A stretch of 64,000 nt of DNA from Levilactobacillus humaensis (GTDB lineage Bacteria > Bacillota > Bacilli > Lactobacillales > Lactobacillaceae): positions 1 through 64,000 of the forward strand of contig NZ_BROB01000018.1 of the NCBI RefSeq assembly GCF_024345185.1, written 5' to 3'. Position 1 is the first letter of the stretch; each line of letters begins with the position of its first letter. Positions 10,352 to 38,618 of this stretch are shown piece after piece. A program made the position numbers and the translations under genes. The notes below the pieces were generated by a model. It was not told the DNA's origin. It did no database searches and worked only from the letters and a program-made list of their open reading frames with translations.

Positions 10352-10489
10352 AACGACGCCTCCTCAAGGTTTCTTTATAAATTTTAGTATAGCACAGCTG
10401 GCCCTTCTGATCGGTCAACCTCAAGCGTATTGGGGTTGCTTTTCCGGGGGTGGTTTGCTAAGATTAAACCAATTTGATTAATCTAAGAC

Positions 10490-10720
10490 TGTGACGAGAA
10501 GTAGTAGATGGTTTGGGTATGTAGAAAGCGGATGGTTGCTGAAAATCCGTTACCTGAACAACCGAACTTATCTCCGAGTCCTTTCTGCCGCAAGGTGGGC
10601 GTTTGGCGACGTTATCAGCCGGAATGAGCCTCGAAACAGTTTCGAGGAAATGTAGGTGGTACCGCGCTAAAACGCCCTGCAGTAGCCCATTTTGGGCTAC
10701 TGGGGGCTTTTTTTGTGGGA
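10490..10720 (+). promoter_or_regulatory. T-box leader of leuS with antiterminator/terminator
   Basis: The T-box sequence AGGTGGTACCGCG is at 10654-10666. A terminator hairpin (cagtagccca/tgggctactg, then GGGGGC and seven T) follows at 10678-10717. The leader starts near 10490 with gagaagtagtag. The Leu specifier is not certain; CTC at 10572-10574 is a candidate. Uncharged tRNA-Leu is expected to allow read-through into leuS. Confidence 0.92.
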
Positions 10721-35039: not shown

Positions 35040-35966
35040 ATGGAAGATCTAAGTAAGACGATGCAAAAGCTGATGAATCAACGTCATCTCAATGACAATT
35101 ACCGTCAATTGATGTCGAAAGCAACCAATGATCCCGAGGTTAAAAAATTTCTACAAAACCACAAGGGAGAATTGGCTGAGGATGTGTTGACGCGTTCGGC
35201 GGCTAAACTCTATGAATTTGTGACGGAGCGCGCGAAGGTTGCCAATGGTGGCGAGACGTTTGCGGCAGGCTACGAACCACAACTGATCGTCTCCAATCAT
35301 TTGATCGACGTGGCCTACGTGCCAACGGCTCAGACTCAGGAACGTCAGGCCCAGCAACAGCTTCGTCAGCGGGTGAAGTCAATCGCGATGCCTAAGAGTA
35401 TTCGGGAGGCCACATTGGCCAATTTTGATCAGGACGATGATCGAGCCGAAGCCTTAATGGCTGCTTTGGATTTCATCGACGCCTACGAAGCTAATCCTAA
35501 ACGTCGCCACCAGGCTCTCTACTTGGCCGGTAGTTTCGGCGTTGGGAAGACCTACTTGTTAGCGGCCGTTGCCCATCAATTGGCAACGGATGGCTTTGCC
35601 ACGACGTTGGTCCACTTCCCAAGTTTTGCCGTTGAAATGAAGAACGCCATCGCTCAAAATGGGGTGGCGGACAAGTTGGAATCATTGAAGAAGGCCCCAG
35701 TCCTGATGATTGATGATATCGGGGCCGATGCCATGTCGGCGTGGGTGCGGGATGATATTTTGGGTGTTATTCTGGAATACCGGATGCAAGAGGAATTACC
35801 AACCTTCTTCAGTTCCAACTTCTCCATGGCTCAATTGGAGAAGGAACATTTGCGGATCTCAACGCGTGGGGACGACGAACCACTGAAGGCCCAACGGCTG
35901 ATGCAACGGATTCGTTTCTTAGCCCGCGAGATCACGATGGTTGGCGTTAACCGCCGGCCACAGTAA
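35040..35966 (+). CDS. dnaI: primosomal protein DnaI (helicase loader)
   Basis: 308 residues. N-terminal helicase-binding domain (about 1-110), then an AAA+ ATPase: Walker A GSFGVGKTYLL (about 163-173), Walker B VLMIDDIGAD, sensor SSNFS. It loads the replicative hexamer onto DNA. AGGAGG precedes the ATG. Last gene of the polA operon; a terminator follows. Confidence 0.96.
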   Translation: MEDLSKTMQKLMNQRHLNDNYRQLMSKATNDPEVKKFLQNHKGELAEDVLTRSAAKLYEFVTERAKVANGGETFAAGYEPQLIVSNHLIDVAYVPTAQTQERQAQQQLRQRVKSIAMPKSIREATLANFDQDDDRAEALMAALDFIDAYEANPKRRHQALYLAGSFGVGKTYLLAAVAHQLATDGFATTLVHFPSFAVEMKNAIAQNGVADKLESLKKAPVLMIDDIGADAMSAWVRDDILGVILEYRMQEELPTFFSSNFSMAQLEKEHLRISTRGDDEPLKAQRLMQRIRFLAREITMVGVNRRPQ

Positions 35967-35986
35967 GGCTGACTATAAGTTTCAAA

Positions 35987-36036
35987 CTAGCTATTCACGT
36001 GGATTTATCTCTCGTGAGTGGCTATTTTTTGTTTTG
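35987..36036 (+). terminator. terminator of the polA-dnaI operon
   Basis: Hairpin tagctattcacg/cgtgagtggcta followed by TTTTTTGTTTTG. Confidence 0.82.
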
Positions 36037-36129
36037 AGGTATTTAGACGTTCTAAAAACACAGACAGTAAGAAATTTGCAGGGGCCGTTTTGACTCGTTT
36101 AAAAAAACGAAACTGTGAGCCGGAAGGGT

Positions 36130-36291
36130 GGTGGCAATGGGCTCAGTCGTGGGAATTCTCTTACCGGCAGGGGTTCGGCCGGTTAGAGAATTGGTGTTCT
36201 TGAGACGCGATTCCCAGCGGCTCAAGAACAAGGCTAAAGACCGCCTTGTGGCTTTAGCCGTCCGCCCACAACGTTCCAGCCCATGGCCACC
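36130..36291. ncRNA. cloverleaf-like structured intergenic element, possible ncRNA
   Basis: A long closing stem pairs 36130-36143 with 36278-36291 (13 of 14 pairs) and continues as 36146-36153 with 36265-36272 (7 of 8). Inside it are three hairpins: 36154-36167/36179-36192 (13 of 14), 36196-36204/36221-36229 (9 of 9) and 36232-36239/36252-36259 (8 of 8). Together they make a four-way junction of about 160 nt. No coding sense on either strand. It precedes and is separate from the thrS promoter. Strand is unknown; it could be an RNA gene or a palindromic repeat element. It is neither a tRNA nor an RNA I recognise. Confidence 0.6.
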
Positions 36292-36353
36292 GCCCCGGAG
36301 GCGGCGGATATTACTAAACTAATCGTTGATTCGAAGTTTTTCACAGCCATCCC

Positions 36354-36382
36354 TTGACAATATTTGGCCGCAAGTGTTTAAT
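36354..36382 (+). promoter_or_regulatory. thrS promoter
   Basis: -35 TTGACA (consensus), 17-bp spacer, -10 TTTAAT. Confidence 0.8.
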
Positions 36383-36388
36383 AGTCTT

Positions 36389-36637
36389 TGAAACCACAAG
36401 AGCTATGACGAAAGACATGGTGGTGGCGGAGTCGTTCACAGGAAGAGCCGGCCTAGATTGGAAGCCGACTTAGCGCCCGCCAGCATTACCGCTTTCCTAG
36501 CTGTCGAAAGGAAATTTTCGACCGGTCCGTTCCGTTAGCGACGATTAGAGTTCACGGGATCAGTCTCGTGAAAAATATCGGGTGGAACCACGTTAATGAC
36601 GTCCCCAGTGCCTTCTTTGGCACTGGGGATTTTTTCG
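36389..36637 (+). promoter_or_regulatory. T-box leader of thrS
   Basis: T-box sequence CGGGTGGAACCACG at 36579-36592, then a terminator hairpin gtccccagtgcc/ggcactggggat with TTTTTT (36601-36636). ACC in gcattaccgc (about 36492-36500) is a possible Thr specifier. Confidence 0.92.
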
Positions 36638-36674
36638 TAGTCAGCCCCAAAATCAATAAGGGAGATTGTAAACT

Positions 36675-38618
36675 ATGGCAGATATTTCATTGAAATTTCC
36701 AGATGGTAACGTTAAAGAATTCCCAGCCGGCACGACGCCAGAAGACGTTGCAAAGTCGATTTCCATTAGCTTAGGGAAAAAGGCTGTTGCCGCTAAGTTA
36801 GAAGGCGAATTGATCGATAACTTAACCCCAATCGCACACGATGGTAGCATCGAGATCGTGACAAAGGGTGATGAAGATGGCTTGACTGTTCTGCGGAACA
36901 CGACCGCTGCCTTGGTTCGGATTGCCTTGAAGAAGGAATTCCCAGCCATTCGTTTGGGTGAAGTTCGTGCCGACGAAGACGGGTTCTTCGTGGATACCGA
37001 CAAGGATGACCAACAAGTCAGTGTTGATGAATTGGATGCCATTGCCGTTATCGTTGAAAAGTTAGTTGCTGACAAGGCCGCTATCGAACGTGTTGTCCTC
37101 AGCAAGGTCGATGCTTTGGCCCAAGCCAAGGATGATCCTTACACGACTGACTTGATCAACGCCGTTGACGGTGACCAAGTTAACTTCTTAAAGATTGGTG
37201 ACCACCAAATCTTAAGTGACGGTGCCCAATTAGCTAACACGGGTGACGTCAAGAAGTTCAAGTTGCTTTCCGTTGCTGGTGCTTACTGGCAAGGCAAGTC
37301 CTCAAACCCAATGCTCCAACGGATTTACGGGACGGCCTTCTACAAGCAAGCTGACCTGGATGCCGACTTAGCTCGTCGCCAAGAAGCCCGCGAACGTGAC
37401 CACCGTGTCATCGGGAACCAATTGGACTTGTTCTTCGTTGATCCTAAGGTCGGTGCCGGTTTACCATACTGGATGCCAAATGGGGCGACTATCCGTCGTA
37501 CGATCGAACGTTACATCATCGACAAGGAAGTTGCCAACGGTTACCAACATGTTTACACGCCAGTCTTAGCTAACCTGGATCTCTACAAGCAATCCGGTCA
37601 CTGGGCCCACTACCGTGAAGACATGTTCCCACCAATGGACATGGGTGATGGCGAACAACTTGAATTGCGGCCAATGAACTGCCCTAGCCACATTCAGATT
37701 TACAACCACCACATTCGTTCTTACCGTGAACTCCCATTGCGGATTGCCGAATTAGGGATGATGCACCGTTACGAAAAGTCCGGTGCTTTGAGTGGTTTGC
37801 AACGTGTTCGTGAAATGACCTTGAACGATGGTCACACGTTCGTTGCGCCAGAACAAATCCAAGACGAATTCAAGAGCATCCTGGACTTGATGGTTAAGGT
37901 TTACAAAGACTTTGACATCAAGGACTACACGTTCCGTCTGAGCTACCGTGATCCTAAGAACACGGAAAAGTACTTCGACGATGATGAAATGTGGAACAAT
38001 GCGCAAAAGATGTTAAAGGGTGCCATGGATGACCTTGGCTTACCTTACGTTGAAGCCGAAGGGGAAGCAGCCTTCTACGGTCCTAAGTTGGACGTCCAAA
38101 CCAAGACGGCCCTTGGGAACGAAGAAACGTTGTCAACCATCCAATTGGACTTCATGTTGCCAGAACGCTTCGACTTACACTACGTCGGTGCCGATGGTGA
38201 AGAACATCGTCCAGTTATGATTCACCGTGGCTTGGTTTCAACCATGGAACGGTTCACCGCTTACCTGACTGAAATCTACAAGGGTGCCTTCCCAACCTGG
38301 TTGGCGCCTAAGCAAGTTACCATCATTCCTGTTTCCGAAGAAAAGCATGGTGCTTACGCCGACAAGTTAGCCGCTGAATTAAAGGCTGCTGATGTTCGGG
38401 TCAACGTCGACAAGCGTGGTGAAAAGATGGGCTACCTGATTCGGGACGCCCAAACGCATAAGATTCCATACACGTTGGTTGTTGGTGAAGACGAAATGGC
38501 TAATGGCACTGTCTCTGTCCGGAAGTACGGGGAAGATGACAGTAATTCCATGAGCAGTGACGCCTTCGTCAAGGAAATCCTGAGCGACATCGCTTCATAC
38601 AGTCGCGAAGAAAACTAA
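36675..38618 (+). CDS. thrS: threonyl-tRNA synthetase
   Basis: 647 residues, class II, full length. TGS domain (about 1-62), editing domain (about 65-220), catalytic core with motif 2 [17 protein letters not shown] and motif 3 [12 protein letters not shown]-terminal anticodon-binding domain. In the editing domain the ThrRS-specific HxxxH pair is not obvious: the stretch [20 protein letters not shown] replaces it, so editing may be lost. ATG with GGGAGA upstream; under T-box control. Confidence 0.96.

Follow-up and report, generated by a model that had tools for sequence, protein, structure and literature searches.

The non-coding stretch between dnaI and thrS in Levilactobacillus humaensis is one copy of a family of high-copy, short (~150–190 nt) non-coding repeats found in Levilactobacillus chromosomes and also in other Lactobacillaceae. 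Family members have AGCC..GGCG ends, a cloverleaf-like fold that branches into two or three internal hairpins, and an almost exclusively intergenic location. The family is apparently undescribed: a search of openly accessible literature returned no recognizable description of it, and the accessible portions of PMC2267715, PMC12306157, and PMC8632094 name no such lactobacillar family. In our judgment, it is probably a structured dispersed repeat that was formerly mobile or moves slowly and that spread within chromosomes by means of a factor acting in trans on the folded plus strand. Below, ‘the window’ denotes the whole 64,000-nucleotide stretch of DNA that was analyzed.

A preliminary description of this DNA proposed a branched element before thrS, and the fold is borne out. 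The plus strand of 36100–36320 forms outer and inner stems with three hairpins (Table 1), with a folding energy of −110.6 kcal/mol; shuffled sequences average −75.5 (sd 4.3), which gives z = −8.2, and none of 200 is as stable. The minus strand of the same interval also folds, more weakly (z = −6.7). The placement between dnaI (end at 35966) and thrS (start at 36675) is likewise correct. The limits first given, 36130–36291, are too narrow at both ends, since the family boundaries lie at 36118 and 36303, and the statement that almost every base is paired was slightly too strong, with 120 of the 162 bases of that interval paired in the computed structure. In the window copy, the ends and outer stem form the helices 36119–36121/36300–36302, 36126–36135/36286–36295, and 36137–36143/36278–36284, and the inner stem forms 36146–36147/36271–36272 and 36149–36153/36265–36269. 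Two suggested alternative pairings, 36117–36121 with 36140–36144 and 36290–36294 with 36300–36304, are complementary by eye. The AGCC..GGC ends are conserved in every subfamily examined.

Table 1. Features of the repeat copy upstream of thrS (window positions).
Feature	Position	Strand	Basis
Whole repeat copy, subfamily A, model positions 1–183	36118–36303	+	194.7 bits, E 4.1e-39, genome search
5' end arm GCC, pairs with 36300–36302	36119–36121	+	Predicted structure; end conservation in 121 own-genome copies
Outer stem, 5' arm, 10+7 bp, unpaired base 36136	36126–36143	+	Fold; covariation
Inner stem, 5' arm (GT, GTGGG)	36146–36153	+	Predicted structure; alignment
Hairpin P2, in-stem T-T mismatch 36162/36184	36154–36192	+	Both-side changes in 10 of 14 pairs
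Hairpin P3, A-G mismatch 36205/36220 retained across the alignment	36195–36230	+	Both-side changes in 9 of 11 pairs
Hairpin P4, conserved AGACCG..GGCT	36232–36259	+	Both-side changes in 5 of 9 pairs, other 4 invariant
Inner stem, 3' arm (CCCAC, AC)	36265–36272	+	Predicted structure; alignment
Outer stem, 3' arm	36278–36295	+	Fold; covariation
3' end GGCG of the repeat	36300–36303	+	End conservation; predicted structure

The Rfam covariance check that had been proposed finds no known family over the element: nothing overlaps 36118–36303 up to E 10 in a search of 36000–36700, no match at gathering score covers it in the window, and nothing lies over copies of the sister subfamilies up to E 1. 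The BLAST search for further copies, also proposed, matches the window element at seven places in its own genome, two of which are pieces of one copy, and in 23 of 35 congeners. A covariance model was then built from a folded alignment of 26 trimmed copies (27 were prepared, and one with a short left end was left out; the 35 loci included partial matches, which were set aside). It finds at least 122 own-genome copies, with 150 candidates scored out of 564; they occupy many different intergenic sites in both orientations, and the element is not a single-locus RNA. With at most 76 candidates scored per genome, the model matches 33 of the 35 congeners, the two with zero matches being G012 and G024, and G004 has eight. 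Under stricter filters, with six candidates scored per genome, at least 120 of 397 Lactobacillaceae genomes, in 13 of 40 genera, have a match. An order-wide search gave matches in 12 of 295 genomes, all of them Lactobacillaceae; inspected loci from other genera follow the same structural plan. A 20-base pattern of subfamily A matched 46 stretches, of which 43 belong to Levilactobacillus species and three to an ‘uncultured Lactobacillus’ assembly. Carriage by plasmids or phages was considered and rejected, as those searched hold no copies.

The own-genome set comprises 122 copies in 834 kb (the window plus 40 stretches), i.e., 82 of 86 plus 40 of 44 matches after five opposite-strand matches, two cut by the end of a stretch, and one of the weakest were left out; 400 kb of L. 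lanxiensis (G014) hold 101 copies and 400 kb of G030 hold 61. Copies overlap genes in 1 of 122, 4 of 101, and 0 of 61 cases, respectively, with genes called by a simple codon score and decayed copies under-counted by the model search. The own-genome copies sort into subfamilies of 67, 30, 17, and 7 members and one single copy, the window copy belonging to the group of seven. All groups share the ends AGCCG..AGGCG, and most subfamilies carry the AGACCG..GGCT hairpin, which some members of the large group lack. Best-match identity among own-genome copies is 72–97% with no identical pair (98.3% at best in L. lanxiensis), and there is thus no sign of current activity among the copies compared. Several model matches in L. 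lanxiensis (L230, L231, L233, L240, and others) sit inside palindromes that extend ~40 nt further at either end and have the usual end motifs and constitute a larger subfamily. In the same species, copy density falls sharply beyond ~280 kb of contig 2 (L241–L246).

The preliminary description hesitated between a new small RNA and a palindromic mobile repeat. Given the number of own-genome copies, the second is nearer, and conservation of the fold fits a functional RNA too. A small RNA or switch specific to dnaI and thrS is, by contrast, very improbable. The site is occupied in five genomes (G000, G015, G020, G010, and G019), and the copies there in G020 and G015 are 91% and 87% identical to the window copy; yet more than 100 copies lie at other places, and the dnaI–thrS gap of several congeners has no copy of the window subfamily, so that specificity to this gap is not supported. 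Nor does a scan of 35950–36450 return any promoter- or terminator-like site, although it also misses the thrS promoter visible by eye, whose TTGACA starts at 36354. The window copy precedes a thrS T-box leader (RF00230) at 36396–36609 (61.5 bits against a gathering score of 93, E 6.9e-13), the only significant Rfam match in 36000–36700. Like the repeat, the leader is structured and lies upstream of thrS; it is, however, a separate element 3' of it, and the repeat therefore plays no part in thrS regulation. Elsewhere in the window, a second T-box leader at 10482–10682 scores at the Rfam gathering level, and 18 tRNA matches cluster on one strand between 90 and 1752.

Pairing is kept in 97.3% of cells of the 26-row alignment; 42 of the 60 pairs, and 210 cells in all, show changes on both sides. 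On all five fold measures the alignment scores higher than each of 500 shuffles and every slid version (36–51% paired), a result that is not to be read as a probability, since the aligned copies are related to one another and also supplied the structure. The outer-stem helix has both-side changes in 16 of 18 pairs and 96.6% of cells paired; in the inner stem, five of six pairs are invariant and thus neither support nor oppose pairing. Compensatory stem changes in relatives, which the preliminary description proposed to look for, are strongly in evidence both in the alignment and in place at the thrS site. There, orthologues from G000 and G010 differ by seven double changes that keep the pair, three single changes that keep it, and two broken pairs, and those from G010 and G019 by five, eight, and three, respectively. 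The closest orthologues are weaker (one, two, and six for G000 versus G015; one, zero, and three for G000 versus G020), and three further subfamily A loci show no double change, three kept pairs, and three broken ones. Summed over eight overlapping comparisons, there are 14 double changes, 18 single changes with the pair kept, and 20 broken pairs, and 71 of 502 unpaired positions differ versus 66 of 958 paired ones. Among pairs predicted on both strands, G-T combinations exceed A-C (110 versus 46 cells, 68 versus 37 columns, p = 0.003; in L. lanxiensis, 40 versus 17 cells, p = 0.003, and 23 versus 13 columns, p = 0.13), which gives modest support to the plus strand as the folding strand. A naive count of 220 to 35 was set aside in favor of this one because it is biased by folding only one strand.

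The compensatory changes expected of a structured RNA are therefore present, subject to one caveat: arms may be copied from each other during replication (quasipalindrome correction), so that stems would covary with no selection on the fold. Many pairs do show double changes with few intermediates, and arms have been copied outside the element in L. lanxiensis, where 27 of 88 copies (L227–L246; contig 2, 1–400000) are flanked by locus-specific inverted repeats, against 0.15 expected from swapped partners. However, no such outer repeats surround any of 120 own-genome or 61 G030 copies, the in-stem mismatches and bulges (the A-G in P3, a bulge in P4) stay uncorrected across the alignment, and the G-T/A-C asymmetry also speaks against copying. 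As the source of the covariation, arm copying appears improbable. The outer-repeat counts come from an anchored test, a loose flank alignment having been dropped for its random scores. The outer inverted repeats of L. lanxiensis extend at least 15 bp into the neighboring gene in 11 of 20 inspected cases, and small gaps are commoner in their intergenic arm (74 versus 31).

The copies mostly lie at gene borders and are strongly polar with respect to genes. In 249 of 273 copies from three genomes, the 3' end lies closer to a flanking gene than the 5' end does (102 of 115 in the own genome, 90 of 97 in L. lanxiensis, and 57 of 61 in G030); the own-genome groups give 61 of 64, 28 of 29, 10 of 15, and 3 of 6, and the single copy 0 of 1. 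As the 5' distance of a paired copy includes its partner, copies alone in a gap were counted separately, with 35 of 45 (subfamily A, 0 of 3) in the own genome and 42 of 44 in L. lanxiensis. Among neighbors sharing a gap, 78 pairs are head-to-head, one is tail-to-tail, and nine are in tandem (37, 1, and 0 in the own genome; 24, 0, and 7 in L. lanxiensis; 17, 0, and 2 in G030). Copies face stop edges more often than start edges (75 of 447 against 40 of 481 in the own genome; 52 of 221 against 38 of 237 in L. lanxiensis). Both edges of a gap are jointly occupied above chance (odds ratios 26.6 and 7.1), and gaps that bear copies are about twice as long even without them (376 versus 184 bp in the own genome; 411 versus 194 bp in L. 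lanxiensis). Detectable intrinsic terminators are rarer behind genes whose stop codon is followed by a copy (32 of 127 versus 126 of 323, p = 0.006; p = 0.01 for G014 alone and 0.21 for G000 alone). The window copy is an exception to the polarity, with 152 bp on its 5' side and 372 bp to the thrS open reading frame; its thrS-facing side is filled by the thrS leader.

Copies are gained or lost between sister species, although no insertion event was seen. In G012, whose DnaI is 98% identical to that of the window, the model has no match in the genome search, nor in 379 kb at E 10. Among 20 own-genome copies with matchable flanks, three of the corresponding G012 sites retain clear remnants: the two L129 sites keep ends joined in a way that resembles excision of the hairpin between short direct repeats, and L114 keeps a partial copy in a decayed state. 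Two sites (the window site and the left L130 copy) hold doubtful pieces, and the rest show no clear trace. G015 and G020 retain subfamily A copies at matched sites. Of eight lost non-A copies inspected in these two genomes, three left end fragments (18, ~27, and ~13 nt) and three did not; the remaining two comprise a site without a clear match and a site that gave no readout. As end fragments persist at former sites in sister species, at least some copies predate these species and were deleted later. A composite unit of two copies and a spacer is not supported, G012 keeping spacers where both copies are gone.

Several features are those of a MITE-like element, i.e., many dispersed, short, non-coding copies with ends that pair as inverted repeats (alignment pairs 3/194 and 4/193, 92.3% paired). 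Of the two marks of such a repeat named in the preliminary description, scattered copies are found and target-site duplications are not: over 223 copies no offset or direct-repeat length stands out, and TA precedes 20 and follows 4 of the 223. Candidate partners were tried and rejected. Y1 transposases occur in 23 of 35 genomes without matching repeat presence, Y1_Tnp being absent from copy-bearing G003, G020, and G029 and present in copy-free G012 and G024; the only Y1_Tnp match of G000 (contig 51, 1747–2103) contains an in-frame TGA. Reverse transcriptases (RVT_1) occur in 10 of 35 genomes, none in the own genome, and do not track the repeats either. Loss of the SbcCD hairpin nuclease as a cause of tolerance was discarded, with SbcD in 35 of 35 genomes. 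No autonomous relative was seen among the partial copies. Six internal partials retain the 3' part, but inspection attributes some to internal deletions, a tandem duplication, or the end of a stretch, and they were not accepted as a sign of 5'-truncating retro-insertion.

How the copies spread and what they do can be rationalized in two main ways. In the mobile reading, which we favor as probable, copies would have spread by intrachromosomal copying, as the similarity within subfamilies suggests; a helper in trans would recognize the plus strand in its folded form, either RNA or single-stranded DNA; and deletion would remove copies, at times with end fragments left behind. Absence from the searched plasmids and phages is unusual for a mobile repeat, and plain insertion does not predict the gene-end polarity. 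That polarity is better accounted for by a host element at gene borders, which might fold in nascent RNA transcribed from the intergenic side and stop or destroy transcripts entering the gene, i.e., read-through from upstream and antisense from downstream. A polar border function is possible in light of the orientation toward genes among all copies and single ones, the head-to-head pairs, the joint occupation of gap edges, the rarity of terminators behind copy-bearing stop codons, and the in-place compensation at the thrS site. Nevertheless, the window copy and half of the six own-genome subfamily A copies analyzed are exceptions, G012 lives without any copy, and in the closest orthologues broken pairs outnumber double changes (six to one for L001 versus L009). 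We regard this border role as a minority possibility. Its fullest form, in which each chromosome would have hundreds of folded repeats that face inward, bracket genes, and shield them from read-through and antisense through the incoming RNA, as a system that can be lost, seems unlikely.

Bacterial interspersed repeats are usually viewed as inert MITE-like debris. REP/BIME elements, associated with RAYT (Y1) transposases, have many intergenic palindromic copies and fold as single strands, whereas the Levilactobacillus repeat is much longer and branched, and Y1_Tnp does not track its presence. BOX elements are modular in build. According to the accessible part of PMC3049150, BOX, RUP, and SPRITE of Streptococcus pneumoniae resemble our family as short, foldable intergenic repeats of a Gram-positive chromosome. 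RUP, as portrayed in the sections of PMC2229807 at hand, has 9-bp terminal repeats, target-site duplications, and TA at its ends; the Levilactobacillus repeat has neither the duplications nor the TA ends. The same sections describe ERIC/IRU, NEMIS/Correia, CIR, and YPAL as intergenic elements of ~100–170 bp that form structured RNA with proposed effects on neighboring mRNAs, orientation mattering for ERIC, and mostly as two-arm or long-hairpin repeats with terminal inverted repeats and target-site duplications (PMC2229807). Our family shares their size, intergenic location, and structure, as far as those sections go, but differs in the branching of its fold, in stems whose sequence is free to vary, and in gene-edge polarity. 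From these elements, the nearest known in kind, the family is set apart by its branched fold, its polarity, the lack of target-site duplication, and the lack of copies on the plasmids and phages searched.

In these food-borne lactobacilli, a repeat keeps its branched fold despite sequence change and is polar toward genes in three species, and a sister lineage has lost the family wholesale. The long-standing question of whether such repeats serve their host thereby becomes directly testable here.
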